A stretch of 64,000 bases of DNA from Vicinamibacterales bacterium (lineage in GTDB: Bacteria; Acidobacteriota; Vicinamibacteria; Vicinamibacterales; UBA2999): NCBI GenBank assembly GCA_030680175.1, contig JAUXWO010000076.1:1-64000 (forward strand). The letters run 5' to 3'. Below are positions 41,264-61,770 of the stretch, in pieces. The notes below the pieces were generated by a model. It saw only the letters and a program-made list of their open reading frames with translations, did not search any database and was not told where the DNA came from. The position numbers and the translations under genes are program-made. Each line of letters opens with the position of its first letter. The first letter of the stretch is position 1.

Positions 41264-41713
41264 CTACTTGCGGCGGATGTAGGTCACGTGCGTGACGCCC
41301 GTGATCTTGCCATCCTTGTCCATGCGGATGTACTCGTTGCTGATCTGGTTGTTGTCGGCGGACAGTGTGTTGATGATCACCTGGGTGACGACGCCGTTCC
41401 GCTTGTTGTAGATGCGGGTGCTCTTCTCGTCGATGATCTCGACGGCCGTCTCGGCGTTCTCCTGGCCGGTGACGGGACGGTACTGGCCGTCGAACATCGT
41501 CACGTAGCTCCACGCCGCCTCGGGCTTGCGCGGATCGCTGACGGTGACCTTCATGCCGCCCTTCTCGTAGGGCTCGTAGGTCATGACGTTGTTGGGGTTG
41601 GTCGAGTTGTCCCAGATCCCGAATCGCGTCTCGCCCTGGGCCGAGGCCGGGCTGGCGGCGACGAGGGCGGCGGTGAAGACGGCCGTGCAGACGAGCAGAT
41701 TTCTGTATCGCAT
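41264..41713 (-). CDS. Small secreted protein of unknown function
   Basis: 149 residues from ATG 41713 (agagga upstream). Signal peptide about 1-26 (LLVCTAVFTAALVAASPASA). The mature protein is rich in Asn, Tyr and Thr: FGIWDNSTNPNNVMTYEPYE, GVVTQVIINTLSADNNQI, ending THVTYIRRK. The pattern suggests a lipocalin-like beta-barrel, but I cannot name a family. A MITE-like repeat lies 92 bp upstream. Confidence 0.65.
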   Translation of the reverse strand: MRYRNLLVCTAVFTAALVAASPASAQGETRFGIWDNSTNPNNVMTYEPYEKGGMKVTVSDPRKPEAAWSYVTMFDGQYRPVTGQENAETAVEIIDEKSTRIYNKRNGVVTQVIINTLSADNNQISNEYIRMDKDGKITGVTHVTYIRRK

Positions 41714-41804
41714 CGATTCAATCCTCTTGGAGCTCCGGCAGCCGGAGAATCTGGTCAGCATACTCAATGGCGGGGAGGGCTGCAACGCGCGATCGGCGGC
41801 CCAA

Positions 41805-46497: not shown

Positions 46498-46867
46498 TCC
46501 CTGACGGGCCACGCGGAGGGCAGTGGCCTGGTCGCCCAGATGGCCTCGTCAAACAACGGGGGAAATTGCCCCCCTTGCGCCACCAAAACTGACCCCCTCC
46601 CAATTACTGTTTTCTGCAGCACAGGATGTAGACGTGCCACATGGACGACGACGATGGCATCGTCGGGAGTGGAAGTCGAGAGGGTAGAAAGAGCCAACGC
46701 GCCAGATCGCTGGTGGGGCAAGCCCTTCGACTCGTTCCGCTCGCTCCCTTCGACTGCGCTCAGGGAGCCCCGAGCATCGTCGAGGGGCTCAGGGCATTCG
46801 ACTCGCCAGATGGGCTCGCCATGAGCGAGCCTCCGGCTCGCCGCAGGCGATTTGGAGGCGAGTCGAA
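46498..46867 (+). other. Gap with dispersed repeats and IS-end-like remnant
   Basis: No gene seen. About 46556-46602, read on the minus strand, gives GGGGGTCAGTTTTGGTGGCG and GGGGGCAATTTCCCC, resembling the ends of IS21-family elements, without a transposase. From 46725 follow CCCTTCGACTCG / GCTCAGGGAGCC / GAGGGGCTCAGGGCA pieces and, at 46796-46868, the palindrome CATTCGACTCGCC ... GGCGAGTCGAATG, a second copy of the repeat at 45064. Confidence 0.4.
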
Positions 46868-46893
46868 TGGTGGAGGCGGCGGGAGTTGAACCG
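46868..46893 (-). other. tmRNA 3'-end fragment, probable att site
   Basis: The minus strand reads CGGTTCAACTCCCGCC followed by GCCTCCACCA, which is the T-loop, acceptor 3' strand and CCA of bacterial tmRNA (ssrA). The 5' half of the T-stem and the rest of tmRNA are absent, so this is not a working gene but the duplicated 3' end left by integration. Host repeats lie on the left (downstream of tmRNA), element DNA on the right. The intact tmRNA should be at the far end of the element, outside the window. Confidence 0.8.
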
Positions 46894-47200
46894 TGATGCA
46901 CGAATTCCCTCAATGATTTAGCCAAAAATAAAAACGCAGCATGCGGCAAAAAAGGCAGAAACACCCGGTGGACGCTCAGATCGCACTCAGCAGTTGAATG
47001 CCTCCATGCACTGATCTACCATCGAGGTAATTAACCCCGGCTGAGGGATTTCTACCAGCCGGCCGGCACGCGGACCTCGGTGAACCGTCAGGTGACGGCC
47101 CGGGTGCTCCCCTCGGTTAAGGCAAGGTCTCCCGACCTTGCTAGGTCCCGCCCAGGGACGCGCAAGACCGACTCCCAACTTTTCGATGGAGATGTGTGTC
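46894..47200 (+). promoter_or_regulatory. Left control region of the integrated element
   Basis: AT-richer start (46915-46960) after the att site, no gene. Contains the palindrome CCGTCA-gg-TGACGG (47085-47098), a candidate operator, and the perfect hairpin GCAAGGT-ctcccg-ACCTTGC (47122-47141), 59 bp before the HTH gene. Confidence 0.45.
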
Positions 47201-47467
47201 ATGGCGTCCAATGAACGTCCCCTGATCGATCCTTCGGCCCCGTTCCGCATCAAGGTCTACGCGAGCTATCGCGTGCGCGAAGTCGCCGAGCTCACCGGCA
47301 TCGGCGTCGACAAGGTGCGCGATCTTTTCGCCTCCGGCGAGTACGGCGAATGCATCAAGGTCGAGAGCCAGCGCACGCGGAAGTTCCGCAAGAACTACAC
47401 GACGCTGCTCATCCCCTATGACGCGCTGGCGAACTTCTTCAGCAGGTCCGTCCGCAAGAGCGCGTAG
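47201..47467 (+). CDS. Small helix-turn-helix protein
   Basis: 88 residues from ATG 47201 with ggaga 8 bp upstream; upstream in-frame ATGs at 47186 and 47192 are less well placed. The centre reads VREVAELTGIGVDKVRDLFA followed by a basic ESQRTRKFRKNYTTLLIPYD, like excisionase/MerR-type winged helices that read DNA with a helix and a basic wing. As the first gene beside the att site it could be an excisionase or an early repressor. Followed by a strong terminator. Confidence 0.7.
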   Translation: MASNERPLIDPSAPFRIKVYASYRVREVAELTGIGVDKVRDLFASGEYGECIKVESQRTRKFRKNYTTLLIPYDALANFFSRSVRKSA

Positions 47468-47473
47468 ATCCCC

Positions 47474-47504
47474 GGGCCCGGCTCACCACCGGGCCCTCTT
47501 TCTT
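47474..47504 (+). terminator. Rho-independent terminator
   Basis: Stem GGGCCCGG / CCGGGCCC, loop ctcacca, followed by TCTTTCTT; 6 bp after the HTH gene stop. Confidence 0.85.
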
Positions 47505-47865
47505 ATCCTTCGTCAATCTCTCGTGCCAACGCACGATTAGCTCCGGCAAGGCCGGATAGCCCCGCAAAAAATTTCGCTCGGCAAATGCCGGAAACAGGCT
47601 CGCCCACCGGCCCCCTCCTCACCGGAGGGTTAGTCCCATGTTCTCGCTATCCCTCGAACCCTATTGGGCTGGCCTTCGGCCGCATGGTCCTAACCCTCCG
47701 CTTCGCGGGCCCTATCGGGCTCCCTATCGGTCGGGCCGGCGGGCGACTGGCTCTTGAAATTTCGCGGAACGCTCCGCGACCTTCGGTCCACCGTATCTGC
47801 GACGGTCCCTAAACACCGCTTACACGTAAGCTCGCCGCCGCTTCTTCTCAGGGTAGCGCGTCGGC
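47505..47865 (+). ncRNA. Structured non-coding region, possible RNA or origin
   Basis: No convincing gene. A long imperfect stem pairs GGAGGGTTAGTCCCATG (47624-47640) with CATGGTCCTAACCCTCC (47683-47699), 15 of 17 positions matching, enclosing GGCCTTCGGCC. It is followed by CGCTTCGCG, CCTATCGGGCTCCCTATCGG and GCGGAACGCTCCGC hairpins. The density of stems, right after a terminator, suggests a structured RNA, a replication origin or a nick/packaging site; the sequence alone does not decide. Confidence 0.35.
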
Positions 47866-48092
47866 AAGGAGAATCCTCGGCATGGCTGCGCCGCCTCATC
47901 TCCTCCTTTCCCTCGACGCGCTGCCCTTGTTGCGAAGCGGCAAGCTTCGCAAAGGTCGAAAATCAAGATCACAATCCGATGCTTTTCTTTTGTCTCGAAT
48001 GCGAGCTCCTGACCTTGACGGAAATGGTGCCGCTCGGCGACGACGCAGGAGGTCCGTTGGCGGTGTGCTCCATCTGCCGCGTGCCTCGGTGA
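47754..48092 (+). CDS. Small zinc-ribbon protein A (start uncertain)
   Basis: The trustworthy part begins near 47883 (AWLRRLISSFPSTRCPCC). It carries three Cys pairs: CPCC, CLEC (LFFCLECELL) and CSIC just before the C-terminal RVPR. No ATG, GTG or TTG lies in frame between the aaggag at 47866 and this segment; the TTG at 47754 lies inside the structured region. A CTG start at 47886 is possible. It shares W-L-R-R then a CxxC with the next gene, so the two look like tandem paralogues. Function unknown; probably metal-binding. Confidence 0.45.
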   Translation: MKFRGTLRDLRSTVSATVPKHRLHVSSPPLLLRVARRQGESSAWLRRLISSFPSTRCPCCEAASFAKVENQDHNPMLFFCLECELLTLTEMVPLGDDAGGPLAVCSICRVPR

Positions 48093-48259
48093 TCACTTGG
48101 CTGCGCCGCTACCTCGCCACATATGGCGAGTGGAGCTGGTGTCTGAAGTGCAAGAAAAATACGCGCTCCTGGTTTCGCAAGGTGCGCTACTACGGAGAAA
48201 TTCAACGCCGTCCGATTTGCTCCGTGTGTCTCGATTGGAAGCCTTTCGACAGTCGATAA
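48089..48259 (+). CDS. Small zinc-ribbon protein B
   Basis: 56 residues, GTG start overlapping the stop of gene A (GTGA). Begins (V)ITWLRRYLATYGEW and has CLKC and CSVC pairs spaced like a zinc ribbon, with a basic linker (KKNTRSWFRKVRYYGE). The same frame is open upstream to ATG 47882, but that extension is Arg/Leu low-complexity read out of frame of gene A. The stop codon is inside a GTCGATAAATC motif. Confidence 0.5.
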   Translation: MITWLRRYLATYGEWSWCLKCKKNTRSWFRKVRYYGEIQRRPICSVCLDWKPFDSR

Positions 48260-48264
48260 ATCAA
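48252..48264 (+). promoter_or_regulatory. GTCGATAAAYCAA motif, site 1
   Basis: GTCGATAAATCAA ends 11 nt before ATG 48276. Three further copies with one or no change lie at 58038, 61758 and 62179, each 12-14 nt before a start codon. Confidence 0.5.
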
Positions 48265-48275
48265 TCAATATATCC

Positions 48276-48401
48276 ATGCCTCTTCCGATGTCGCCCGCGT
48301 GCGAAGACGGAGCGTGTGACGGATGCCGATACGGGGATTGCGCCTGCACCTGTCACGACGCAGACCCGTGGGACGTTGAGCCGGATTCCGCGATGCCGTA
48401 G
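48276..48401 (+). CDS. Tiny cysteine-rich protein
   Basis: 41 residues, ATG to TAG, without a Shine-Dalgarno. Six cysteines in the pattern C-x4-C-x2-C-x4-C-x-C-x-C (CEDGACDGCRYGDCACTC) then an acidic tail. It is followed 11 bp later by a terminator, which supports it as a real gene. Probably metal-binding. Confidence 0.5.
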   Translation: MPLPMSPACEDGACDGCRYGDCACTCHDADPWDVEPDSAMP

Positions 48402-48412
48402 CTGAAGGACGA

Positions 48413-48442
48413 GCCCCGCCTCACCCGCGGGGCTTTTCTTTT
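48413..48442 (+). terminator. Rho-independent terminator
   Basis: Stem GCCCCGC / GCGGGGC with loop ctcaccc and tail TTTTCTTTT. Confidence 0.85.
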
Positions 48443-48633
48443 CGGCGTCCCCTCGTGCCGTGCGCTGCGCGCTTGCCGGATTACCGGCAACGGTGTTGCT
48501 ACACCTGCGGCACTCGGGAACCGGCAAAACGAGCGTGTCACTTCCCGAGCCGAAGCCTCCGGTGCACCATGCCTCCATGGGTGAAGTTGCCCGGATGCCG
48601 CGCGTGCATGACGCGCTTTACGAGGAAGTGAGC

Positions 48634-49056
48634 ATGAGCTATTCCGATCTCAAGTTCGCGGAGCTCCTGCGAAGGCTGAAGTCTCTTCAGGAGGAAGTGG
48701 TGACCTGGAACGGGTCCCCGCCCGCGTTGACCATGCAGGCCGTGGTCGCCATCGTGCGCGAGCTGAATGCCTACGGCATCGACGAGACCGATCCCCGGAT
48801 GATTCTCAACCGCTTCTTCCCGCCCAAGGAAAAGCGCCGCCGCGTTCGCGTTGCCGAAGTCATTCCCGAGCCCGTCGAACCGATCCGCGACAAGACCGAG
48901 ATCGAAAAACACCTGGAGGCGTTGACCGAGGAGGAAGCGCATGTCGTCGGTTATCTCGAACGCATTGGCGATGAGAAATCGGCCCGGGCCGCCAAAGAGC
49001 TCTACGCTGGCGTCCGCGCTCGATTTTTTAAACCGTCGCGATTCCACGAAACATAG
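48634..49056 (+). CDS. Small charged protein of the ATPase module
   Basis: 140 residues from ATG 48634 (gaggaagtgagc upstream). Helical N-terminal half (DLKFAELLRRLKSLQEEVVT), a basic-Pro centre (PPKEKRRRVRVAEVIPEPVE) and an acidic C-terminal half (EKHLEALTEEEAHVVGYLER). No recognised family. Its last 116 bases overlap the start of the first ATPase gene, so the two are translationally linked; a DNA-binding or adaptor role for the ATPase is conceivable. Confidence 0.65.
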   Translation: MSYSDLKFAELLRRLKSLQEEVVTWNGSPPALTMQAVVAIVRELNAYGIDETDPRMILNRFFPPKEKRRRVRVAEVIPEPVEPIRDKTEIEKHLEALTEEEAHVVGYLERIGDEKSARAAKELYAGVRARFFKPSRFHET

Positions 49057-50821
49057 CCTCCACCTCGGACGATCCGCAGCCGGGGAATTCCGGCTCGCCG
49101 AGGCGGACCGCAAGGGCCATGTCGCCATGTTCGGCGGCACCGGCACCGGCAAGACGAACGACATGGGCGTGATGCTCGTGCAGGACATCGAGCACTTCGA
49201 GGGCGTCGGGGTTATCTGCCCGATGAAGGAGCTCGCGGACCGGGCGGTGGAATTCTGCTACCAGGCCGGCAGAAAGGACGTCATCTATTTCGAGCCGGGC
49301 GATCCGAACTGGGTCACCCCGTTCGATCTCCGCGAGCTCGAAGGCGAACCCCTGGTCGCCGCCGAACGCACTGCCCAGGCCCTGCTTGCCGCCTGGGGCA
49401 TCAAGGACACGAACCTGATGCCTCAGCTCGAGCAGTGGCTGACGATCGTCCTCCTCACCTCCCGCGATGCGGACATCGACCTGCCGTATGCGTGGCATCT
49501 CCTCGAGCACAAGACCAAGCTCCGCGAGAAGTTCGCGCCCTACATTTCGGACGACGCCGTGCGCGAGCTGCTCCTCTCGCTCGACAAATACAGGCACCAC
49601 GATCTCGTGCACGAGGTCGGGTCCACCCTGCGAAAACTTCTGCGCTTCACCTTCGACGGGCCCGTCGCCCGGTCAATGGGCCTCGGGGCCAACGCCATCA
49701 ATTTCAAACAGATCATGGACGAGGGGAAGGTCTTTATCGCCTCGCTCCCCGAGGGTAAGGGCCTTTCCCAGCCGATGCAGAAGCTTTTTGGAACCCTCAT
49801 CGTGAACGGCTTCTACCACGCCGCGATGTGCAGGACCGGCGAGGAAAGGCCCTTCTACCTCTACATCGACGAGGCGCCGATGTTCGCCACGCACACCTTA
49901 GGAAACGCCCTCGATCAGTGCCGTCAGAAAAAGCTGTATTTCACCTTCGCCGTCCAGCGGCCCGGGCAGTTCAAATCGAAAGACCCGGAACTTTACGACG
50001 CCATCAAGAACGGCGCGCAGACCAAGATCGTGTTCCGCGCGACGAACCGTGTCGATGCCCTGGAGATGATCGACGACATCGTGTTCGGCCTGGCTGAGCC
50101 GCAGATCAAATACGAGCTCTGGGGCATCGCGTATCGGCCCGTGAACACCTACCTGCCCTCATATTCCTCGACCCAGGGCGGCGGCGACACCTGGGACCAG
50201 GGGGAGAGCTACGGCATCAGCGCCGGCAGCACGAACGGCGGCAGCCTCGCCAAGACCGACGCCTGGTCCGACAGCCGGAACGCGAGCGATACGAAGAAAG
50301 AAAACGAGGTCATCCACCACACCGACGCGACCGGCCTCGTGCTGCAGGGCGGCACCACGGAGGGCCGGAATTGGGCGACGAGCCTTGCCACCACGCAGAC
50401 AAAAGGCTTCAGGAACGGCGGGTCCGGGAGTTGGAGCGACACGGTGACCTGGGCCCCCGGCACCATCCACATCCCCGAGAACGAGCTGAAGCAGGTCGTT
50501 CTTATGAGCCTGGAAGACCGGCGGCGGATGGAATCGGACGCGCTCATGCAGTTCCCCGACGGCGCGAAGTTCGTGAAGGTGAAGGGCCAGGGCGCGGTGG
50601 CGGTGAAGGGCCCCCTGGTCGTGAACTTGTCAAATCCGGAGGACATCGTAGAGTTTAAGCAGACCCTTCATCGAGCCCATTCCGTTCCCCGGGCCGATGC
50701 CGACCGCATCATCGCGGCGAGGCGCAAGGAGATCGCCACGATCCCGCCGAAGGAGCCGACCTTCGACGACGACTACACCTTTTCACCTTCAACGTCATGG
50801 CTGAAAAACAGCTCCGATTGA
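48941..50821 (+). CDS. TraG/VirD4-like DNA-translocase ATPase 1
   Basis: 626 residues; ATG with strong gaggagg Shine-Dalgarno. Walker A GGTGTGKTNDMG at about 66-77, Walker B FYLYIDEAP near 305, and TFAVQRPGQF as the conserved Gln motif. The strand after Walker A reads VICPMKELAD where relatives have D-P-x-G-D. Residues about 405-510 are a Gly/Ser/Trp-rich insertion typical of this group. Such hexameric pumps couple or move DNA in conjugation; no other type IV secretion gene is seen. No membrane segment is obvious. The next gene overlaps by 25 bp. Confidence 0.8.
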   Translation: MSSVISNALAMRNRPGPPKSSTLASALDFLNRRDSTKHSLHLGRSAAGEFRLAEADRKGHVAMFGGTGTGKTNDMGVMLVQDIEHFEGVGVICPMKELADRAVEFCYQAGRKDVIYFEPGDPNWVTPFDLRELEGEPLVAAERTAQALLAAWGIKDTNLMPQLEQWLTIVLLTSRDADIDLPYAWHLLEHKTKLREKFAPYISDDAVRELLLSLDKYRHHDLVHEVGSTLRKLLRFTFDGPVARSMGLGANAINFKQIMDEGKVFIASLPEGKGLSQPMQKLFGTLIVNGFYHAAMCRTGEERPFYLYIDEAPMFATHTLGNALDQCRQKKLYFTFAVQRPGQFKSKDPELYDAIKNGAQTKIVFRATNRVDALEMIDDIVFGLAEPQIKYELWGIAYRPVNTYLPSYSSTQGGGDTWDQGESYGISAGSTNGGSLAKTDAWSDSRNASDTKKENEVIHHTDATGLVLQGGTTEGRNWATSLATTQTKGFRNGGSGSWSDTVTWAPGTIHIPENELKQVVLMSLEDRRRMESDALMQFPDGAKFVKVKGQGAVAVKGPLVVNLSNPEDIVEFKQTLHRAHSVPRADADRIIAARRKEIATIPPKEPTFDDDYTFSPSTSWLKNSSD

Positions 50822-51660
50822 ACGAGCACGACGAGGACATCTTCGAGTTGTTCGAGACGCGCAGCACGGTGATGGTCGAGGACGTTGTGCAGAAGTACAA
50901 CCGCAACCGCAGATCCGCGCAGGCGGGATTCAAGCGTCTCGTGGAAAACGGTATTTTAATCGCCGCGCCCGTATTCGAGGGAAGGCATTTCAAGGGCTAC
51001 GCCTACTCGATCCCGGTCCACGCCCGGCAGCGTGTGACGGAGCGCATCGGCGGAAAGAAGGTGTTCGTGCGCGACGACGCGCCGAAAGACCCGGACCATG
51101 AAGTGACGCTCGGCCGCATCGCGGACGCCGCGATCTCCCAGGCCGATGCAGCGGGCTTCGAGCCGCCGTTCATCGAGCGCAGGAAGAAGTTCCTGCACGA
51201 CAGCGTCACCAAGGACGGCGAGAAGATCTCCATCAACCCGGACCTGTTCATCGCGCTGAAGCCCAAGGACCGGGACGTGCTGCTCATCATGCAGTTCGAG
51301 AACGAGGGAAAGCTCGGACGCTACCGCGAGGGCAAGTCGCAGCAGGACCGCAAGATGGCCGGCTACTTCCATTACCGGAATTCCGGCCGCGCGAAGGAGT
51401 TCTGGGCGGGCCGTAACATCCCCGTCCACGATTTCAAGACCGGCTTCGGCCATCAGACCACGGAGAAGCGGAACAACTGGGCGAGACGGAACTTGATCCC
51501 CTTCCGCTACCGGATGTTTTGGGGCGCGGCGAATGAGGACTTAATCCGCGACTTCTACGGCGACGTGTGGATCACACCTGCGGAATTCAATTCCAGCTAT
51601 CCCGAGGAGAGCCCTCGTACAGGTTTCAAAAACTTGGTTCAATCAAAGAGGCCCCTTTAA
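50797..51660 (+). CDS. Replication-relaxation family protein
   Basis: 287 residues. The N-terminal winged helix (NEHDEDIFELFETRSTVMVE; NRRSAQAGFKRLVENGILI) is followed by a domain with INPDLFIALKPKDRDVLLIM and QFENEGKLGRYREGKSQQDR, KMAGYFHYRN, the pattern of replication-relaxation (PF13814) proteins, with PD...E-x-E residues reminiscent of PD-(D/E)XK nucleases. In plasmids the family is needed for replication and DNA relaxation. It is sandwiched between two TraG-like ATPases, so it may prepare the DNA that they move. Confidence 0.75.
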   Translation: MAEKQLRLNEHDEDIFELFETRSTVMVEDVVQKYNRNRRSAQAGFKRLVENGILIAAPVFEGRHFKGYAYSIPVHARQRVTERIGGKKVFVRDDAPKDPDHEVTLGRIADAAISQADAAGFEPPFIERRKKFLHDSVTKDGEKISINPDLFIALKPKDRDVLLIMQFENEGKLGRYREGKSQQDRKMAGYFHYRNSGRAKEFWAGRNIPVHDFKTGFGHQTTEKRNNWARRNLIPFRYRMFWGAANEDLIRDFYGDVWITPAEFNSSYPEESPRTGFKNLVQSKRPL

Positions 51661-51671
51661 TGGGAGCGGCT

Positions 51672-51733
51672 CGGGTGTCCCCGGACCGCGAACCTCCGGT
51701 CCCTGCTCTCGCCTGCGGGACACACCCGCGGAT
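51672..51733 (+). promoter_or_regulatory. Structured leader before ATPase 2
   Basis: CGGGTGTCCC at the left pairs (one 2-nt bulge) with GGGACACACCCG at the right, enclosing the hairpin GGACCG...CGGTCC. It fills the 106-bp gap before ATPase 2 and could be a cis-acting RNA structure. Confidence 0.35.
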
Positions 51734-51766
51734 GGAAGGGAGAGGTGGGGCTTGAGGACCACGAAC

Positions 51767-52996
51767 ATGGAAACCCTTATCGGTCATCGCATGGGCTACT
51801 ACAACCGCGCGCCGTTCATGGTGAACGCGGACAAGCACACGCGCATCGTGGCCGAGACCGGCACCGGGAAGAGCGTGCTGATGGGCGACATGATGATCGA
51901 GGACATGCGTGCCGGCCGCGGGTTGCTCGCCATCGACCCGAACGGCACGCTGGTGCGCCGTGCGCTCCGTTACGTTCCTAAGCACCGCATACACCACGTC
52001 CGATGGTTCGACCCGCTTTCTGATCGCCCGCTCGGGCTGACCGTTCTGCGGGGGAACACCCGCGAGGAAAAGCTGAAGCGCGCGGACCAGTACATCGACA
52101 CCATTTCAAAGGTCTTCGAGAACGGCTGGGGCGGTTTGAGCGATTACATCGTTCGGAATCTCCTCTACACGATCATCGAGGTTGAACCCGAGCCGACGCC
52201 CGCGCACCTGTATCTCGCGCTCATGTCCGAGGAATACCGGGACAGTTTATTCGGCCGAGCGACGTCGGAGAACTTCCGGCTTTTCAAGAACAAGTTCGAC
52301 GAGGAATGGAAGGCATCGGACCGCGAGAACCGGTCGGCGGCGCCGATGAACAAGAGCGACATTCCGATCGCGAGCTGGATCATCAGGGACGTGTTGTGCC
52401 AGGCGAACGGCATGGACCTCGGTGAGGAGATGGCGAACGGCTCGATCATCCTGTGTGACCTGGATAAAGGCAGGATTGGCCCGAAGGCCTGTAGCCTGTT
52501 TGGCCGTTTCCTGCTTCAAGAGGTTCTCTTCGCGGGTTCCGCCCGCGAGGAAGGTTCGAAGCCGTTCTCGCTCTACATCGACGAGCTCCACAACTTCGTC
52601 GACGTGGATGCGCTCGAGACGGTGCTTCAGGAACTCCGCAAGCGGAATGTCCGTGCCGTCGGAGCTGACCAGGAAGCTCGTTACATTCCCCGAGCCAATT
52701 TCACCACGACGATCGTCGGTGCCGTGGACCCCGTTTCGGCCGAGGAGCTCGCGGCGAACTTCGCCAAACCTGACCTCGCCGAGTTCCTCACGAAGATCCC
52801 GGCATTTCATTGGGAGGTGCAGACGAAGGATGAGAACGGCGTGAAGTCCGACCCGACGTTCGTAAAGGGACGCACGCCGCTCAAGCGCATAGGGACCGAG
52901 TATCCGGCGGCGCGCGCCATTCAATACAGCGAGGAGAACTACGGCACGCTGCGGGAAAAGGTGGAACGCGAGATCAACCGCTTATTGGCAGCCTAA
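51767..52996 (+). CDS. TraG/VirD4-like DNA-translocase ATPase 2
   Basis: 409 residues from ATG 51767 (gagg upstream); a TTG at 51752 is also possible. Walker A AETGTGKSVLMG near residue 30, then LLAIDPNGTLVRRALRYVP, which matches the DPHGDLV segment of TraG/HerA-like ATPases except that the last Asp is replaced by Thr. Walker B FSLYIDELHNF near 265. No large insertion, unlike ATPase 1, so the two are diverged paralogues rather than a recent duplication. Possibly they form a mixed ring or act at different steps of DNA transfer or packaging. Confidence 0.8.
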   Translation: METLIGHRMGYYNRAPFMVNADKHTRIVAETGTGKSVLMGDMMIEDMRAGRGLLAIDPNGTLVRRALRYVPKHRIHHVRWFDPLSDRPLGLTVLRGNTREEKLKRADQYIDTISKVFENGWGGLSDYIVRNLLYTIIEVEPEPTPAHLYLALMSEEYRDSLFGRATSENFRLFKNKFDEEWKASDRENRSAAPMNKSDIPIASWIIRDVLCQANGMDLGEEMANGSIILCDLDKGRIGPKACSLFGRFLLQEVLFAGSAREEGSKPFSLYIDELHNFVDVDALETVLQELRKRNVRAVGADQEARYIPRANFTTTIVGAVDPVSAEELAANFAKPDLAEFLTKIPAFHWEVQTKDENGVKSDPTFVKGRTPLKRIGTEYPAARAIQYSEENYGTLREKVEREINRLLAA

Positions 52997-53005
52997 GGAG
53001 GCCAT

Positions 53006-53221
53006 GTGGAATCTTTCGAATCAGCAGCGAAGGCGCATGAAAGTTTTCAGCACGCCCGGCAGCAAGCCCTTGCCGATCTCCAGGCCGAGCGCGATCGCAT
53101 CGACGAGCGCATCAAGCAAGTGCTCGCCTGGGGCAAGCCGGCGAGCCTGCCGGTGAAGGACAAGAAGCGCGGCCGGCCGAGGAAGGAGGACTTGCAGAAA
53201 TCGGCCAGCGTGCTTAAGTAA
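53006..53221 (+). CDS. Coiled-coil protein with AT-hook
   Basis: 71 residues, GTG with aaggagg Shine-Dalgarno directly after ATPase 2. A helical, charged stretch (QQALADLQAERDRIDERIKQ) is followed by KDKKRGRPRKED, an AT-hook of the GRP core type. Probably a small DNA-binding or nucleoid-like protein acting with the ATPases. Confidence 0.7.
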   Translation: MESFESAAKAHESFQHARQQALADLQAERDRIDERIKQVLAWGKPASLPVKDKKRGRPRKEDLQKSASVLK

Positions 53222-53292
53222 ACCTGTCCCTCAATACGGGGCGCCTTCACCCGGCGCACCACCGGGCCACAGTAGGCGGGACGTCGGGTGAA

Positions 53293-53436
53293 ATGGCTAA
53301 ATTCAAACGACGAAAACCCAAGAGGCAGAAGTTCTCGCGAAGTGGGTGGCGAGCCGAGGGCATTTTTCAGAAGCGCGCAGTTTACGTTCGGATTTTCAAA
53401 CAGGAGAAACGACAGTTCGGTCTGCCCACCGCATAA
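53293..53436 (+). CDS. Very basic small protein
   Basis: 47 residues, ATG with gggtga upstream, TAA 5 bp before a terminator stem. Sequence start MAKFKRRKPKRQKFSRSG, later IFQKRAVYVRIFKQEKRQFG. Lys/Arg-rich; could bind nucleic acid. Supported only by its position, start signal and clean end. Confidence 0.4.
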   Translation: MAKFKRRKPKRQKFSRSGWRAEGIFQKRAVYVRIFKQEKRQFGLPTA

Positions 53437-53461
53437 AAAGAGACCCCGCATAAGCGGGGTC
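53434..53461 (-). terminator. Bidirectional terminator between converging genes
   Basis: Stem GACCCCGC / GCGGGGTC with loop ataa, A-run on the left (CTCTTTTT on the minus strand) and tttt-type run on the other side. It ends the minus-strand primase gene and probably also the small plus-strand gene. Confidence 0.85.
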
Positions 53462-54488
53462 AAAACAGTTCATAGAGATCTTCCGGGGGCCAGCGATCGG
53501 GCTGGCTCCATTCTTCTTCATCAGGCAAGAACATCACCTTCACGCTCTCGAAGTTCCGCGCGAGGAGCTTGCAGCCGGCCTTCGCCGCCTCCTCCTTGGC
53601 GTTGCCGTCGAACATGAGGATGACGTGGCGGAAGTGCCCAAGAAGGTCGGCCTGCTCATCGCTCAGATTCTTCCCGAGCGTGGCGACGCCGTTCTTGATG
53701 CCGGCGCGGGCTAATGCGAGAACCCCCCACGGACTCTCCACGATCACGGCGGTGTCGAAGTCGTGGCTGACCACGCGCTCGATGTTGAACAGCTCGAGGT
53801 GGGCGTGGAATTCGGCGGGGAGCTGCCAGCGCGGAGGTTGGAACTTCGGATTGTCCTTCGGCTTCCAGGCCAGCTTCTCATCGACGAGCCTGCCGGAATA
53901 TCCGACGATCTCGCCCTTCACGTTGGCGATCGGGAACGCGATGCGGCCGGCGTTGTAGCCCTTCGAGGTGTAGCCGACGCCGAATTCCTCGCACAGCTTC
54001 GGATCGAACCCGCGCTCCGCAAGATACGGATACGCGTGATCGAGCTTCAGTTTGCCGTCCCAGTCCTTGCCGGCCAGCCTGGCCTTCTCGCGGAGAGGGA
54101 TGTTGACGAGCGGCACCGGGGCGGTATTCTGAGATTGCTCCGACTTCGCAACGGTTACCTCCTGCCTCGCGGCCGGGGGTTTTCCGTTTCCATTCCCGAG
54201 CCCGAACCATCCGTAGATGCGCTCGGCCGCTTCCTTCGGGCCGATGTTGTCGGTGAGCTCCACGAACTTCAGCGCACCGCGGCCCTTGGCCTTGCACGAG
54301 AAGCACTGGAAGCGCCACTCGGCATCTACGGAGAGATCACCGGGATCGGGTTTACCGGAATGCCCGTGGAACGGACAGACGGTGCGAAGGTTCTTCCCCT
54401 GCGGCCTCGCTTCGAGCGAGTACTGAGCGAACACCATCTCGGGCGTCACTCGTTCGCGGATCACGGCGAAGTCAAAACGGTGAGCCAT
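53460..54488 (-). CDS. DnaG-like primase (CHC2 zinc finger plus TOPRIM)
   Basis: 342 residues from ATG 54488, with aaaggaggt 4 bp upstream; an ATG five codons earlier overlaps that site. N-terminal CHC2 zinc finger: CPFHGH ... FQCFSCKAKG (residues about 38-75). Middle PYLAERGFDPKLCEEFGVGY is the primase catalytic-core start. TOPRIM: VIVESPWGVLALARAG (Glu) and VILMFDGNAKEEAAKAG (D-x-D reduced to D-G-N). The altered TOPRIM Asp is unusual. No helicase domain. It makes RNA primers for element replication; transcribed divergently from the Vsr gene. Confidence 0.85.
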   Translation of the reverse strand: MAHRFDFAVIRERVTPEMVFAQYSLEARPQGKNLRTVCPFHGHSGKPDPGDLSVDAEWRFQCFSCKAKGRGALKFVELTDNIGPKEAAERIYGWFGLGNGNGKPPAARQEVTVAKSEQSQNTAPVPLVNIPLREKARLAGKDWDGKLKLDHAYPYLAERGFDPKLCEEFGVGYTSKGYNAGRIAFPIANVKGEIVGYSGRLVDEKLAWKPKDNPKFQPPRWQLPAEFHAHLELFNIERVVSHDFDTAVIVESPWGVLALARAGIKNGVATLGKNLSDEQADLLGHFRHVILMFDGNAKEEAAKAGCKLLARNFESVKVMFLPDEEEWSQPDRWPPEDLYELF

Positions 54489-54578
54489 CAGACCTCCTTT
54501 CAATGGTCTGACCTCACCGTACCAAGCCCACGGAATCTGACAAGCGAAGGAGAACCGGGAGAAACGACAGCGCGAATA

Positions 54579-54599
54579 AGTACGCAGATTTTGCGTACT
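54579..54599. promoter_or_regulatory. Perfect palindrome in the primase/Vsr divergent region
   Basis: AGTACGCA-gattt-TGCGTACT, 8-bp arms, between the divergent primase and vsr starts. A likely repressor operator controlling both directions. Confidence 0.55.
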
Positions 54600-54655
54600 A
54601 AAAAATAAATGAAGTTTCGATTGACGGCGTGATGTGGCGGCGCGATTCTCATCTC

Positions 54656-55024
54656 ATGACGACGTTCGCTCTCGAACGCCGCGCCACGAAACCGGAACGA
54701 GCCGTCCGGGCTGCGCTCCTACAACTAGGGGTGCGCTTCGAATGCAACGTGCCGGGGCTGCCTGGAACTCCGGACATAGTGCTCTCCGGGAAAAGAGCCA
54801 TCTTCGTCCACGGGTGTTTGTGGCATGCTCACGACTGCCCGCGCGGCAGGGTGTTCGGGAACCCGCCGCTGAGACTTCAACAGGCAAAGAACGTCGCGCG
54901 AGATCTCGCGAATTGCTCAATGCTCGCTGATCGCATGCATTGGCGACTTTTGATTCTCTGGGAGTGCGAGACGAAAGACTTCGACGCGCTCAAAGAGCGG
55001 ATTCAGGCCTTCCTCAACGACTGA
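54656..55024 (+). CDS. vsr: Very-short-patch repair (Vsr) endonuclease
   Basis: 122 residues from ATG 54656; GTG/ATG at 54629-54632 would add nine residues. Motifs of Vsr: RRATKPERAVRAALLQLGVR, PGTPDIVLSGKRAIFVHGCL followed by WHAHDCPRG with the metal-binding His/Cys, and MHWRLLILWECET. Vsr nicks T:G mismatches made by deamination of 5-methylcytosine. The typical partner is a C5-methyltransferase, whereas the next methyltransferase here is of the N4/N6 type. Its end overlaps a small minus-strand zinc-ribbon frame. Confidence 0.85.
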   Translation: MTTFALERRATKPERAVRAALLQLGVRFECNVPGLPGTPDIVLSGKRAIFVHGCLWHAHDCPRGRVFGNPPLRLQQAKNVARDLANCSMLADRMHWRLLILWECETKDFDALKERIQAFLND

Positions 55025-55305
55025 ATCTTCCGCATCTCGTCCGGGCTCCGTTTGCGGTGCTTCCTCGCCTGGTCGACGAGCGCCGCGGAAAGCAACGTGC
55101 CCAGGTCGAAGTCGCTCACGGTGAAGCCGTCGAGCCACGCCTCGTGATTGCAGCTCAGGCACTGGATTCGGACCCGGTTCGCGTTCCATTGGCCGGTCGT
55201 CAGCCGGTCCGATCCGCATTGGCAAAATAGAAGTAACGCCACGTTCCGCGAGCACGATAGCATGGAGGGCGAAAGTAGAGGCGAAACCGTGACCTCTCCC
55301 GTCAC
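55003..55305 (-). CDS. Small zinc-ribbon protein (minus strand)
   Basis: Up to 100 residues; the ATG at 55263 would give 86. Contains LLFCQCGSDRLTTGQ ... IQCLSCNHEAWLDG, a CxC/CxxC zinc ribbon, and a helical basic tail (QARKHRKRSPDEMRKIQSLR). Convergent overlap of 22 bp with vsr. The ordered Cys pairs argue against it being noise. Function unknown. Confidence 0.5.
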   Translation of the reverse strand: MTGEVTVSPLLSPSMLSCSRNVALLLFCQCGSDRLTTGQWNANRVRIQCLSCNHEAWLDGFTVSDFDLGTLLSAALVDQARKHRKRSPDEMRKIQSLRKA

Positions 55306-55411
55306 CGGTCTGCGCGAGAATTCGTGACCTTATGTGTCGAAAACTGCGTCCGTCGGTCTATACTTTGGGCTCGAAAGACATGAGAGCCCCATATGCAGTA
55401 GGAGGCGGCCT

Positions 55412-56413
55412 GTGACGCCACTACCAGCCGCAGCTCTGCCCGTCGTCGACCTGCCCGAGCAGGACAACACGAGCGAGGCTCTCGCGACCCTTCTCGCGGC
55501 CAATCGGCAGTATCGCGCGAGCACGTGGCCGGCGCCCTACGACCAGACCACGCACCGCCTCCACCTGGGCGACGCCCGTGACCTCTCCTGGCTGGCCGAT
55601 GAATCGGTTCACCTTGTGGTGACCTCGCCGCCCTACTGGACGCTCAAGGAATACGAGGACCACGAGGGTCAAATGGGCGCGATCGAGGAATACGAGACGT
55701 TCCTCGACGAGCTCGACAAGGTGTGGAAGGAATGCGCTCGAGTGCTCGCCCCGGGAGGGCGGATTTGCTGCGTCGTGGGTGACGTTTGCCTGCCGCGTAA
55801 GAAGAACGGCCGGCACTACATCATGCCGCTCCACGCCGACATCCAGGTCCGCTCACGGAAGCTCGGTCTCGACTGCCTCACGCCGATCCTGTGGCACAAG
55901 ATCTCGAACGGGGTGACCGAAGCGGAGGGCAACGGCGCGGGCTTCTACGGGAAGCCCTATCAGCCTGGCGCGGTCGTGAAGAACGACGTCGAGTACATCC
56001 TGTTCATGCGTAAGGGCACCGGCTACCGCTCCGTGACGACGGTGCAGAAGGCCCTCTCGATGCTGACGAAGGAAGAGATGCAGTCCTGGTTCCGTTCCTT
56101 CTGGTCGGACATCAAGGGCTCATCGACCCGAGCCGGTCATCCGGCACCGTATCCCGCGGAGCTCGCGGAGCGACTCATCCGCATGTTCTCGTTCGCGGGT
56201 GATTACGTGCTCGACCCGTTCGCAGGAACGGCATCGACGAGCGTCGCCGCGGCAATTACCGGCCGGCACTCCATCGCGAACGAGATCGAACCGAAGTATC
56301 TGAGCTTGGCGCAACAGCGAATCGAACGGGAGCTCGAAAAGCTCCGTTTCTCTAGCACCTCGAAGGCGACCTACACCGTCGACAAGCCTTCGCGTCTTCG
56401 CTCCCGGAAGTAA
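55412..56413 (+). CDS. DNA N4-cytosine/N6-adenine methyltransferase
   Basis: 333 residues from GTG 55412, with aggagg 6 bp upstream; a longer frame from 55334 has no ribosome site. Catalytic motif IV TSPPYWTLKEY at about residue 70, then CARVLAPGGRICCVVGDVCL, and the SAM-binding motif I DPFAGTASTSVAAA near the C-terminus. Motif IV before motif I is the beta-class order. TSPPYW is frequent in N4-cytosine enzymes. It is followed 20 bp later by a candidate endonuclease, so a restriction-modification pair is likely. Confidence 0.85.
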   Translation: MTPLPAAALPVVDLPEQDNTSEALATLLAANRQYRASTWPAPYDQTTHRLHLGDARDLSWLADESVHLVVTSPPYWTLKEYEDHEGQMGAIEEYETFLDELDKVWKECARVLAPGGRICCVVGDVCLPRKKNGRHYIMPLHADIQVRSRKLGLDCLTPILWHKISNGVTEAEGNGAGFYGKPYQPGAVVKNDVEYILFMRKGTGYRSVTTVQKALSMLTKEEMQSWFRSFWSDIKGSSTRAGHPAPYPAELAERLIRMFSFAGDYVLDPFAGTASTSVAAAITGRHSIANEIEPKYLSLAQQRIERELEKLRFSSTSKATYTVDKPSRLRSRK

Positions 56414-56433
56414 GGGCGCGCTCAAAGGATGTA

Positions 56434-57147
56434 GTGGACTATCGGCTTCTCGCCGCTTTCAAGGACACTTTCGACGGCAAGATCTACCGACACCGAAGCT
56501 CCACGCATGGTGATCGAGTGTCCCGTGAGCTGTATGAGGACCTCTACGCCGTCGGAAAATCGAAGGCGTTCAGCGAGGGCGTCAAGAACCAGGAAAAGCT
56601 GCTCAACGTCTCGAACCGCCGCCGCGGCGTGAAGGCCCGGCGCGGTGACGGCACGTTCGGTGAGCACGTTCCCGGCAAGAATCCCATCGTCGTCCCTGGC
56701 TTCTCGGTCGCGCGCGGCACCATCGCGAACGTGGAGATCGGCATGGAGGCGAAGTTCCTCTCCAAGGCAATGATCAAGCAGGTCGATCGCGTGATGAGCG
56801 ACCTCGAGAAACAGTTGAAGCACTTCCACCGCGGTGCGGCGAATCCCATCACCGTGGCTGTCGTCGGTATCAACTTCGCCGATCACACGGTGAGCTACGA
56901 AGGCAAGAAGGCGTGGCCGACCGATGGGAAAGATTACAAGCACCCGATTCAGGAAGCGGCCGAGGCCGAGCGTCGTCTCCGTGAGGAGATCGCCCCGAAG
57001 TTCTACGAGTTCATCATCCTGAAATACAAAGCCACGAACGAGGAACCGTTTCCCTTCGAGTGGCTGAACTTCGCAGACACCTATGAGGACTACGGTGCCG
57101 CGCTCATCCGGATCGCCCGCGAGTACGAAGTTCGCTTCGGAGAATGA
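56434..57147 (+). CDS. Candidate restriction endonuclease
   Basis: 237 residues, GTG with aaagga upstream. I do not recognise a named family. VEIGMEAKFLSKAMIKQVDR near residue 100 contains E-x-K in a strand-turn setting like the PD-(D/E)XK core, followed by VAVVGINFADHTVSYEG. Position 20 bp after a DNA methyltransferase and near vsr is the main argument. It could instead be an unrelated phage protein. Confidence 0.5.
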   Translation: MDYRLLAAFKDTFDGKIYRHRSSTHGDRVSRELYEDLYAVGKSKAFSEGVKNQEKLLNVSNRRRGVKARRGDGTFGEHVPGKNPIVVPGFSVARGTIANVEIGMEAKFLSKAMIKQVDRVMSDLEKQLKHFHRGAANPITVAVVGINFADHTVSYEGKKAWPTDGKDYKHPIQEAAEAERRLREEIAPKFYEFIILKYKATNEEPFPFEWLNFADTYEDYGAALIRIAREYEVRFGE

Positions 57148-57150
57148 CCC

Positions 57151-57360
57151 GTGAGTGACACCGAAACCGTGATGTGGAACGGTCGGCAGTTCGAGCTGAC
57201 CGTGCGCAAAGTAAACGAAGAGCCTGAACGATGGGTCGCGTGGATCAAGGTCGTCGGCAAAGACGATCTCGGCGGGCGAAATTCATCCTCCTTCACGGGC
57301 CTCATGGAAGGCGAGGTGCGTGAGAAAGCGAAGGAGTGGATGATCCGCTGGAGGAATTAA
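57151..57360 (+). CDS. Small protein of unknown function
   Basis: 69 residues, GTG start 3 bp after the previous stop. Sequence pattern ETVMWNGRQFELTVRKVNEE, then a C-terminal helix GEVREKAKEWMIRWRN. Looks like a small alpha/beta fold; no motif. Co-transcribed with the candidate endonuclease. Confidence 0.55.
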   Translation: MSDTETVMWNGRQFELTVRKVNEEPERWVAWIKVVGKDDLGGRNSSSFTGLMEGEVREKAKEWMIRWRN

Positions 57361-57409
57361 AACCTCCGCCCGAAGGGCGGCGCGAGCTCGCGCCGGTTGT
57401 TCCCTCCCC

Positions 57410-57437
57410 TTGACGAATAGCAATGGCTTGTTAACGT
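57410..57437 (+). promoter_or_regulatory. Promoter of the HNH gene
   Basis: CCCCTTGACGAATAGCAATG with TTGACG as -35, and TAACGT about 16 bp later as -10. A near copy (CCCCTTGACGAATGTCAATG) lies at 57989-58008 before the next gene. Confidence 0.55.
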
Positions 57438-57444
57438 TGAGGGA

Positions 57445-57975
57445 ATGACCGATTTCGAGCGCCAGAGGCGCGAATTCAAGAAGAGAAAGGAAGCAATCCT
57501 CCGATTACGCTCCCAGCGCTTCACCCTCCAATACATCGGCGACCTTTACGGAATATCTCGTGAACGTGTTCGCCAGATCATCACTGGCTACGTCTCTCCG
57601 AGAAAGAAACCGAAGCCGCCGGCCGAACACAAGATCCTAACGCCTGCAAAGAGGCACGCCCTTGGTCTGCCGGCCCTTGATCCATCGATCGGAATTGCTT
57701 TTCCAAATGGTCAGCGTGATCGAATTCGAGAGATGGTTCGCATCCGCGATAATCGCACGTGCCAAATGTGCGGGAAGGTGTGGGTTCCCGGCACTCGTCG
57801 GCTAGATGTCCATCACCTCGACGAGCGCATGGAGGGCAAAAGCAAAACGGCCGGCATTACTCGTTACGACATCGATAACATGGACAAGATGATCACCGTC
57901 TGCCACAAGTGCCACTACAGCCTTGACTGTGTTAGGAAAAAGATTTCTAAAGGTCTCTTAGCCGCAGCTGCGTAA
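57445..57975 (+). CDS. HNH endonuclease with sigma-region-4-like HTH
   Basis: 176 residues, ATG with gaggga just upstream. Residues about 15-50 (AILRLRSQRFTLQYIGDLYG, ISRERVRQIITG) look like the sigma-70 region-4 helix-turn-helix. Residues about 100-165 form an HNH nuclease: CQMCGK, LDVHHLDERM, DNMDKMITVCHKCHYSLD, with two zinc-binding Cys pairs. The HTH would select the site and the HNH cut it; this fits phage packaging-associated or homing-type nucleases. Confidence 0.8.
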   Translation: MTDFERQRREFKKRKEAILRLRSQRFTLQYIGDLYGISRERVRQIITGYVSPRKKPKPPAEHKILTPAKRHALGLPALDPSIGIAFPNGQRDRIREMVRIRDNRTCQMCGKVWVPGTRRLDVHHLDERMEGKSKTAGITRYDIDNMDKMITVCHKCHYSLDCVRKKISKGLLAAAA

Positions 57976-57992
57976 GTTATCAACAGCCCCCC

Positions 57993-58006
57993 TTGACGAA
58001 TGTCAA
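57993..58006. promoter_or_regulatory. -35 box within a palindrome
   Basis: TTGAC-gaat-GTCAA, perfect 5-bp arms overlapping the -35 TTGACG; TTACTT follows after 17 bp. A repressor bound here would block the promoter of the 58065 gene. Confidence 0.5.
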
Positions 58007-58037
58007 TGGCGTGCTTTACTTACCTTGTAGGACAAAG

Positions 58038-58050
58038 GTCGATAAACCAA
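58038..58050 (+). promoter_or_regulatory. GTCGATAAACCAA motif, site 2
   Basis: Ends 14 nt before ATG 58065; here an aaggagg Shine-Dalgarno lies between motif and start. Confidence 0.5.
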
Positions 58051-58064
58051 CACTACAAGGAGGC

Positions 58065-58433
58065 ATGGAACACACAACGCATCTGATCTTCCCCGCTCGC
58101 ACCGTTCAGCTCCGCCGCCCGTCCCGCAGTTCCTTCATCAAGAAGATCTTCTCCCGCGACCTTTTAACCTCGTTGAAGCTTTCCCTCACGGGAGCCATCA
58201 ACGATATGCAGGACGCGGTCGACGACGTGATGGAACTCGCCACGCGGCCGAACACGAAGCTTAGTGACCAGGACACGTACGGAATCGAAACGCAATTGAA
58301 GGTGCTCGAATCGAACGTCGCCATCCTTCGCTCACACATCAATGGATCAACCGCTCGACCATTACGCACCCGACGAGCTCGGCATGAGACCGGCCGAGGC
58401 GATCGACGAGGACCGGCTACCGGAGCTCGATAA
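58065..58433 (+). CDS. Phage protein of unknown function
   Basis: 122 residues from ATG 58065, aaggaggc directly upstream. The N-terminal part is basic (RRPSRSSFIKKIFSRD), then two amphipathic helices (LSLTGAINDMQDAVDDVMEL; GIETQLKVLESNVAILRSHI). The last 30 residues are Arg-rich and overlap the next gene in another frame, so the true functional end may be near residue 93. No family recognised. Confidence 0.5.
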   Translation: MEHTTHLIFPARTVQLRRPSRSSFIKKIFSRDLLTSLKLSLTGAINDMQDAVDDVMELATRPNTKLSDQDTYGIETQLKVLESNVAILRSHINGSTARPLRTRRARHETGRGDRRGPATGAR

Positions 58434-58500
58434 GGACGAAGAAGAATTCTTTGAGAGAGAAGCCGAACGCCTGAAGAAGATTCACCCCCGCAAGAAATAA
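58342..58500 (+). CDS. Small acidic protein
   Basis: 52 residues, ATG 58342 to TAA 58500, overlapping the preceding frame by 92 bp. Sequence pattern MDQPLDHYAPDELGMRPAEA, then acidic EELDKDEEEFF-type stretch and a basic end (HPRKK). Better coding character than the overlapping C-terminal part of the preceding frame. Function unknown. Confidence 0.5.
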   Translation: MDQPLDHYAPDELGMRPAEAIDEDRLPELDKDEEEFFEREAERLKKIHPRKK

Positions 58501-58575
58501 ACCCACTGTCGAACGAAAGTAACGTCACCGCTCGGAAGGGCCCAATCCTTTCCGGAAACATTAGGAGGAGTTCTG

Positions 58576-58641
58576 GTGAAGTTCGCCTCCGACCCTTCCG
58601 AGCCAATCACATCGCATGAAAAAGGAGATCGTCAGCATTGA
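58576..58641 (+). CDS. Possible leader peptide for the nuclease gene
   Basis: 21 codons from GTG 58576 with a strong aggagga Shine-Dalgarno. It overlaps the ATG of the nuclease gene (58616), which has no ribosome site of its own, so translation of the leader may deliver ribosomes to it. Confidence 0.3.
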   Translation: MKFASDPSEPITSHEKGDRQH

Positions 58642-59548
58642 TGAGAAGCGCGGCATCGCCCGCGTCACGACCGCAGATGAACGCTGGTATACGCGCGAGA
58701 CCACGAACCCGCAAACCGGCCTTCCGGAGATCGACTTCCGCAAGTCCGTAACCTACATCGGCCACTTCTATCCGAAGGGCAAGGGGTTCGAGAATTGGAT
58801 GAAGAAGAACGGCGAGGAAGCGGACATGCTCGTCGCACTCGCCGGAGAACGAGGCTCGAAGGTCCACCAGGCCATCGAGGCCCTGAACAACGGCGAGCAA
58901 GTGAAGATGACCGACACGTTCCTCAACACGAGGACGGGCGCGGTCGAACAGCTCACGCCGGAGGAATACGGCGCGGTCATGTCTTACCGCGACTGGTGGA
59001 TGACCGAGGGCTCAAAGGAATACGTTATCCTCGAAGCCGAGCAGACCATTTGGCCCGAGGGCAAAGGTGCCGAGCCGGGCGGCCCGCTCCATTTCGCCGG
59101 AACGCTCGACCTCCTAGTCAAGCGCGTCGCTGACGGCGCGATCGGCATCATCGACATCAAGACTTCGAAGGAGGTCTATACCGGCCACATCATCCAGCTC
59201 TCCGCTCTCCGCGAAGGCAAGAAGGCCGAAGGTGTGGACGTGCAGTTCCAGGCGATCCTCCAGGTCGGCTACAAACGGAACAAGCAGGGCTTCAAGTTCA
59301 CCGAACAGGAGCACCGCTTCGACCTCTTCCTGGCCGCGAAGAACATCGCCGATTACGAAACGTCCGGCGAGGCTCCGCTCCAGCGCGATTACCCGCTCGC
59401 CCTCACCCTCGGCCTTCCGAAGAAGAAGAGGGCCATCCCTTCCGTCACCGAACCCGCCGCTGAATCCGCACCAATCGCGGAGGAAGCTCCGGAGCAGCCA
59501 GAGCCGGCAAAGGTCGCAAAGAAAAAATCACCCAACAAACATGGATAA
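58616..59548 (+). CDS. PD-(D/E)XK nuclease, RecB/Cas4-like
   Basis: 310 residues. Core: early His in GERGSKVHQAIEALNNGEQV, LEAEQTIWPEGKG, FAGTLDLLVKRVADG (Asp), IGIIDIKTSKEVYTGHIIQL (D-x-K then Gln), which is the RecB/Cas4-type motif series His-Asp-(D/E)-x-K-Q. The last 50 residues are a Pro/Ala/Glu linker with a basic end. Phage relatives act as exonucleases in recombination. Followed by an OB-like protein overlapping by 8 bp, as expected for an exonuclease/single-strand-binding pair. Confidence 0.8.
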   Translation: MKKEIVSIDEKRGIARVTTADERWYTRETTNPQTGLPEIDFRKSVTYIGHFYPKGKGFENWMKKNGEEADMLVALAGERGSKVHQAIEALNNGEQVKMTDTFLNTRTGAVEQLTPEEYGAVMSYRDWWMTEGSKEYVILEAEQTIWPEGKGAEPGGPLHFAGTLDLLVKRVADGAIGIIDIKTSKEVYTGHIIQLSALREGKKAEGVDVQFQAILQVGYKRNKQGFKFTEQEHRFDLFLAAKNIADYETSGEAPLQRDYPLALTLGLPKKKRAIPSVTEPAAESAPIAEEAPEQPEPAKVAKKKSPNKHG

Positions 59549-59891
59549 AGAAAAGTACAAGCCCGTGGGCGGAGAGATGACCGACCGTAACTGGCCGGAG
59601 AAGGGCCAATCGCTCGTGGAGGGTCAGGTGATCGAAGGCATCTACGTTGCGGTCAATCGCAACGTCGGAGCGAACAAGTCCAACGTCTACGTGCTTGAGA
59701 CGGCGGAAGGCGACAAGGTCGGGGTGTGGGGTAACACCGTACTGGACACGAAGTTCGAGCAGATCGAACTGAACTCGAAGGTCGGCATCGAGTATCTCGG
59801 TAGCAAGACGAGCAAGAAGTCCGGCAAGCCGTATCACGACTTCTTCGTCGGAATCGAGGCGCCGGTCACAGACAACGAGCCTCCGTTCTAG
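59541..59891 (+). CDS. OB-fold-like, possible single-strand DNA-binding protein
   Basis: 116 residues, ATG 59541 overlapping the nuclease stop. Strand-rich: SLVEGQVIEGIYVAVNRNVG, NVYVLETAEGDKVGVWGNTV, VGIEYLGSKTSKKSGKPYHD. This is the look of compact OB-fold proteins; the acidic Pro-Phe end (DNEPPF) resembles the protein-interaction tail of single-strand-binding proteins. Assigned by pattern only. Confidence 0.55.
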   Translation: MDKEKYKPVGGEMTDRNWPEKGQSLVEGQVIEGIYVAVNRNVGANKSNVYVLETAEGDKVGVWGNTVLDTKFEQIELNSKVGIEYLGSKTSKKSGKPYHDFFVGIEAPVTDNEPPF

Positions 59892-59946
59892 TAAACCCGT
59901 CGCGTCCCTCGGCAATTGGCCGGGGGACAGGCACTACCACAAGGAA

Positions 59947-60246
59947 ATGAATAACAAACAATACCGGCAAGGAGATTTACTACTCACCTACGTCCAGCAC
60001 CGGCCGAAGGGAACGCCTACTCATAGCCTGGACATTCTGACGAGCTCCGTGACCGGCCACTCGCACACCCTGACCGCCGGGCAAATCTTCGTGAATGAGC
60101 CGAACTGGGAGGACAACGCGAATTTCTACGTCATGGTCCCCGAGGGCGCTCAGCTCGTGCACGCGGAGCACGCCGCGATCACGCTCCCGGAGGGTGTCTA
60201 CAAGGTCGTTCGCCAACGTGAAGTAACCGGCTATGTCCGCGATTAA
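59947..60246 (+). CDS. Conserved GHxH / RQRE-motif protein
   Basis: 99 residues, acaagga upstream. Motifs: YRQGDLLLTYVQ, SVTGHSHTLTAGQ (G-H-x-H), LVHAEHAAITLPEGVYKVV and RQREVTGYVRD. This pattern belongs to a widespread family, found beside DUF6745 proteins, and the next gene here is DUF6745-like. The ordered His residues suggest metal binding in a small beta-barrel. The two genes overlap by 14 bp. Confidence 0.6.
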   Translation: MNNKQYRQGDLLLTYVQHRPKGTPTHSLDILTSSVTGHSHTLTAGQIFVNEPNWEDNANFYVMVPEGAQLVHAEHAAITLPEGVYKVVRQREVTGYVRD

Positions 60247-61576: not shown

Positions 61577-61579
61577 CCC

Positions 61580-61765: not shown

Positions 61766-61770
61766 ACCAA
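61758..61770 (+). promoter_or_regulatory. GTCGATAAACCAA motif, site 3
   Basis: Ends 12 nt before ATG 61783, which has no Shine-Dalgarno. Confidence 0.55.

Follow-up and report, generated by a model that had tools for sequence, protein, structure and literature searches.

What is the 3' end of a tmRNA gene doing at 46.87 kb of this contig, detached from its gene at the point where gene content and GC (from about 0.70 to about 0.60) shift together? The window, i.e. the whole stretch of 64,000 nucleotides that was analysed, comprises bases 1-64000 of contig G000:C83 (103,463 bp), part of a 143-contig draft genome of 4.98 Mb. Its plus strand carries at 46868-46892 the sequence TGGTGGAGGCGGCGGGAGTTGAACC, the reverse complement of the tmRNA 3' end including CCA, and as no tmRNA gene was found in the 64-kb window by ARAGORN or Rfam, this is only a fragment. 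Position 46893 (G) mismatches the C of ssrA and position 46867 (A), outside the gene, matches, so that the exact repeat is 46867-46892, its 26 bp consisting of 25 nt of the tmRNA 3' end and one further base. An earlier note on this DNA had described the last 26 nt of tmRNA, CCA included, in place of the whole gene; the fragment and its CCA stand, and the number of repeated gene nucleotides is 25, not 26. On the minus strand this att core, the displaced ssrA 3' fragment ATGGTGGAGGCGGCGGGAGTTGAACC at the host-facing end of the element, is an exact copy of contig positions 87677-87702. With up to 3 mismatches allowed, the 25-mer has exactly two copies in the 4.98-Mb genome, at 46868 and 87678, where about 5e-8 per genome would be expected by chance from base composition; the same 25-mer read backwards had no match in the 4.98-Mb genome, and none of 100 shuffled versions of the window contained the 25-mer.

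Intact ssrA and the extent of the element

The sole full tmRNA of the genome was located by ARAGORN beyond the window on the minus strand, at contig 87678-88024, with the tag AEPQLALAA. Rightward extension of the contig thus delivered what the earlier note had anticipated there, an intact ssrA on the minus strand, the same 26 bp as a second attachment site at 87677-87702, and a tyrosine integrase at this other end (86491-87594, minus strand). The element between the 26-bp copies measures 40,810 bp and reaches contig position 87676; its portion inside the window, 46867-64000, is delimited by the 26-bp repeats, GC and tetranucleotide distance. The GC of the element is 0.607 as against 0.703 in the host DNA on its left and 0.73 on its right, and its tetranucleotide distance to the host is about 0.2 as against about 0.05.

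Recombining both repeats in silico left ssrA uninterrupted at the resulting attB and released a 40.8-kb circle bearing attP, the tmRNA being identical over 347 nt before and after excision. According to folding, the strong native 3' hairpin of ssrA is exchanged upon integration for a weaker one borne by the phage.

The integrase and its relatives

The tyrosine integrase (367 aa; Phage_integrase PF00589, 6.9e-18; phrog_1, 3.2e-40) lies inside the element and is codirectional with ssrA, its start being 83 bp from the ssrA 3' end. The catalytic residues R, K, HxxR, H and Y are all present, in the motifs SGLRI, KTGTP, HMFRH, LLGHS and EKYY. Its closest relatives, at 51-58% identity, also adjoin ssrA, and in the ssrA-linked relatives G026, G054, G001 and L096 the integrase is 80-95 bp from ssrA and codirectional, as here. 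Most integrases at 41-47% identity adjoin tRNA-Ser genes. In a tree of 24 integrases the target label (ssrA vs tRNA-Ser) requires a single change, a value reached in none of 500 shuffles; the grouping of the ssrA integrases as one clade has weak tree support (64/29) in this tree of 24. As the T-arm sequence GGGTTCRANTCCC is common to tRNA-Ser and tmRNA, it is a plausible basis on which the integrases may have switched targets, and frequent target switching in general was noted by the authors of Islander (PMC4383910). The named genomes with integrase relatives are mostly labelled Acidobacteria; one is labelled Bifidobacterium breve, which we regard as a mislabelled bin. By these labels the host itself would be an uncultured acidobacterium.

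A second integrase type, in the opposite orientation, adjoins ssrA in seven relatives (G018, G027, G020, G010, G042, G005 and G009), and these integrases were not among the ssrA-adjacent matches to the 86491-87594 integrase. The ssrA gene is therefore an integration hotspot in the host family. Another integrase, of the broad family to which the 86491-87594 integrase belongs, is encoded elsewhere in the genome studied (G000:C103:77760-78842; 38-40% identity), and alongside it no recognised tRNA or tmRNA gene was found.

Empty and occupied sites in relatives

The comparison with uninfected relatives that the earlier note had suggested could be made with G013, G037 and G039, which belong to other genera of the host's family and have empty sites. 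In G013 and G037 the sequence TTCGACTCGCC/TTCGACTCACC... and the palindrome GGCGAGCC follow directly 3' of an intact ssrA, and the host flank left of the fragment in the window is about 88% identical to that of G013 over 57 columns (counted manually on the alignment). The displaced 3' copy faces host DNA, as had been claimed, and this host DNA is the native ssrA 3' flank. The flank at 46790-46866 (minus strand), now cut off from ssrA by the prophage, contains a hairpin (TTCGACTCGCC...GGCGAGTCGAA) that is probably the native ssrA terminator, given its strong folding (z = -5.48).

About 5 kb left of the fragment, a conserved host gene of 173 aa and unknown function (41264-41785, minus strand) marks the native region downstream of ssrA. 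In G039 no element intervenes: the ortholog, similarly oriented, is found 1.75 kb downstream of ssrA. In G001, whose integrase is 51-53% identical, the ortholog is 2.4 kb from an ssrA fragment, and the region of this fragment shares 98% identity with the uninterrupted ssrA end of G039 along 115 bp and diverges in the T-loop. The break of this match in the T-loop, together with the shared ortholog, indicates that the two genomes show a single locus in two states, empty in G039 and occupied in G001.

The surroundings of ssrA in relatives hold further traces. G001 and G039, which are of one genus, have in common an ssrA 3' scar of older date, a GTTGCAC variant that lies 92 bp from the current site (L153, G001:C57:21559-21680; L155, G039:C23:204973-205090) and is the trace of an earlier integration. 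In G054 a second ssrA 3' fragment (L109, G054:C129:2166-2190) has integrase-side arm sequence after it (AACTTGCGG...GCTGGGGC) and may belong to a tandem or circular related element. Near-identical ssrA 3' flanks (L049, L052, L038, L042, L051) recur across genera, for example in G029 and G009 and in G018, G007 and G010, which suggests further element types at ssrA. Contigs of two relatives stop at the ssrA 3' end or 3 bp past it (G033:C19, end 94490; G032:C202, end 8819), as a variable site, or one repeated in the population, would lead one to expect. The beta-lactamase-like gene adjoining the boundary was also tried as a marker of the empty site and discarded: a 90% copy is present in G012, where its neighbours differ and the search for ssrA gave none; this copy is therefore uninformative on the empty site.

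Phage genes of the element

The genes between the repeats include a large terminase subunit, TerL, which crosses the window end (contig 63354-64781, plus strand; phrog_979, 5.7e-26), and a major head protein (contig 69091-70284; phrog_267, 3.9e-19). A weakly matching portal-like protein (contig 64804-66798; SU10_portal E = 0.005, below cut-off) had no match in phage records, and a weak match to an SU10-like adaptor is encoded at contig 72615-73268 (SU10_adaptor, 1.7e-6). The sole tape-measure match, phrog_2276, is limited to a C-terminal stretch of a protein of 412 aa, for which endolysin matches were obtained too. Functions in DNA metabolism are represented by a DnaG-type primase (53460-54503, minus strand; Toprim, CHC2 and DNAG_N domains; phrog_47, 3.2e-40), a phage exonuclease of PD-(D/E)XK type (58616-59548, plus strand; phrog_298, 8.6e-18), a weakly matched RusA-like Holliday junction resolvase (62485-62955, plus strand; phrog_34, 1.4e-4) and HNH endonucleases, and a YopX-family phage protein is encoded at 61783-62211 (plus strand; PF09643, 2.2e-20). 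Close to the host-facing end, a small helix-turn-helix protein (47201-47467, plus strand; HTH_17 E = 0.005, below the Pfam cut-off) is a weak candidate for an excisionase or regulator.

TerL has relatives at 46-63% identity in IMG/VR viral contigs and distant, partial matches only among named phage records, while a close-relative search of IMG/VR returned none for the head protein. From these matches the element, with its TerL and major head protein, is best read as a prophage of a tailed phage (Caudoviricetes) without close named relatives, its predicted morphology being probably podovirus-like. No ssrA fragments were found in the integrase-bearing or TerL-bearing viral contigs, probably as these contigs are cut at the host boundary.

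Two groups of accessory genes were also observed. A Vsr-like endonuclease (54629-55024, plus strand; PF03852, 8e-17) adjoins an N6/N4 DNA methyltransferase (55334-56413, plus strand; PF01555, 2e-38) within the prophage, at 54629-56413 of the window. Near the integrase end, a GmrSD_N/DUF262-type protein (contig 82967-84648, i.e. L011:3967-5648, minus strand; PADLOC NsnA, 1.9e-35) has an overlapping 212-aa partner, and the two are a possible defence pair.

The earlier note had also placed a switch to phage functions at the boundary. The shift in content and GC is real, but the phage side also includes a conjugation-type ATPase module. It comprises a TraD/TrwB-like AAA ATPase at 48941-50821 (plus strand; TrwB_AAD_bind and T4SS-DNA_transf barely over cut-off; phrog_5156, 5.5e-17) and a TrwB-like ATPase at 51752-52996 (plus strand; phrog_5156, 1.3e-22), whose sole match among phage records is gp156 of Bacillus phage G (21%). 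Neither had relatives in a close-relative search of IMG/VR; with tblastx a weak ATPase relative was seen in the IMG/VR contig L100. No relaxase, mating-pair or type IV secretion genes were recognised among the element genes scanned. Between the two ATPases (48941-52996) lies a protein with a winged-helix-like N-terminus (50797-51660), the predicted fold of which was unusable (pLDDT 39).

Proposed mechanism and alternative explanations

We consider it nearly certain that the element is a 40.8-kb temperate tailed phage integrated at ssrA by its own tyrosine recombinase, with ssrA rebuilt at the integrase end. The phage would have entered the 3' end of the single host tmRNA gene; its attachment site would have carried the last 25 nt of ssrA, so that recombination would have made ssrA whole again next to the integrase, and the original ssrA 3' end with its native terminator hairpin would have been displaced to the far end, at 46.87 kb. 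The direction of recombination, the activity of the integrase and the inducibility of the phage are what we infer within this mechanism. As a tDNA-integrated prophage the element belongs to a known kind; ssrA has long been recognised as a site of prophages and islands, and no new principle is involved.

An integrative mobilizable or conjugative island, not a phage, might be proposed from the two TrwB/TraD-like ATPases, and the ssrA-linked integrase of G001 is indeed followed by genes of metabolic type, not by recognisable phage genes. However, the terminase, major head protein, SU10-like adaptor, phage primase, exonuclease and endolysin/tail-type gene, the occurrence of the TerL relatives (46-63%) in viral contigs of IMG/VR, and the fact that relaxase and mating-pair genes were not recognised among the genes scanned render an island very improbable. 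A chimeric contig, in which the assembler wrongly joined phage and host DNA, is still less probable: the assembly is a draft of 143 contigs with the join at a short repeat, and contigs of G033, G032 and G017 also stop at or near the ssrA 3' end, but the element is bordered left and right by host DNA of like composition, the native ssrA 3' flank of G013 and G037 recurs in the host flank here, and the integrase family adjoins ssrA in four other genomes. Even a join made by the assembler through the 26-bp repeat would presuppose that the attP of the phage had this core, and the claim of specificity would stand. The empty sites in G013, G037 and G039 make a misjoin at 46.87 kb very unlikely, in agreement with the earlier argument against a chimera.

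That the 26 bp match by chance, or are an old scar with no connection to the boundary of the phage, has negligible probability. Such scars do exist in relatives (G039, 204973-204997; G001, 21559), but the match here is perfect and unique in the genome, at the expectation of about 5e-8, and both composition and gene content break at the same place; this explanation is ruled out by the other copy, found at the intact ssrA beside an integrase. Beyond the integrated tailed phage itself, one may speculate on an undescribed prophage lineage in which the ATPases and the winged-helix-like protein act in phage DNA replication or transfer and tRNA-Ser and tmRNA have been exchanged as targets within the integrase clade by way of the shared T-arm; this broader proposal we hold to be rather unlikely.

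Comparison with known systems and significance

Among known systems, the P4-like prophage CP4So of Shewanella oneidensis also resides at the ssrA 3' end with an integrase adjoining ssrA and repeated attachment sites; on its excision one base is lost, and tmRNA function with it (PMC5148205), whereas excision in silico here gives back an identical tmRNA. The ssrA islands of Dehalococcoides, which carry reductive dehalogenase genes, are bounded by ssrA and a 20-bp ssrA 3' repeat, and resemble the present case in the T-loop breakpoint and in the presence of several islands and repeats at one site; they use the serine recombinase DsiB (PMC3146451), in contrast to the tyrosine integrase and phage described here. 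The tDNA-integrated elements of Islander (PMC4383910) likewise have a regenerated tmRNA gene, a displaced fragment and an internal tyrosine integrase, the combination for which Islander screens, but differ in host lineage, here uncultured Acidobacteriota, and in integrase clade. The best integrase match among phage records, in a comparison of the integrase alone, was to Tunturiibacter phage Tunturi_4 (PP885687; 33% over 99%), which is also acidobacterial and is a siphovirus of 88 kb (PMC11924767). The IMG/VR contig 3300045283_000419 (L100) has a TerL 63% identical and, in part, related primase, SSB-like and ATPase genes; it is, however, an uncultured contig in which no ssrA fragment was found.

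The locus thus gives a prophage whose limits are known exactly and whose attB and attP can be put to use, from an uncultured lineage of acidobacteria with few known phages, and presents at single-base resolution a known integration trick that leaves ssrA unbroken. Within the family ssrA is an integration hotspot, used by two or more integrase types that are unrelated and oppositely oriented, and the ssrA and tRNA-Ser integrases form a small natural series for studying target switching.
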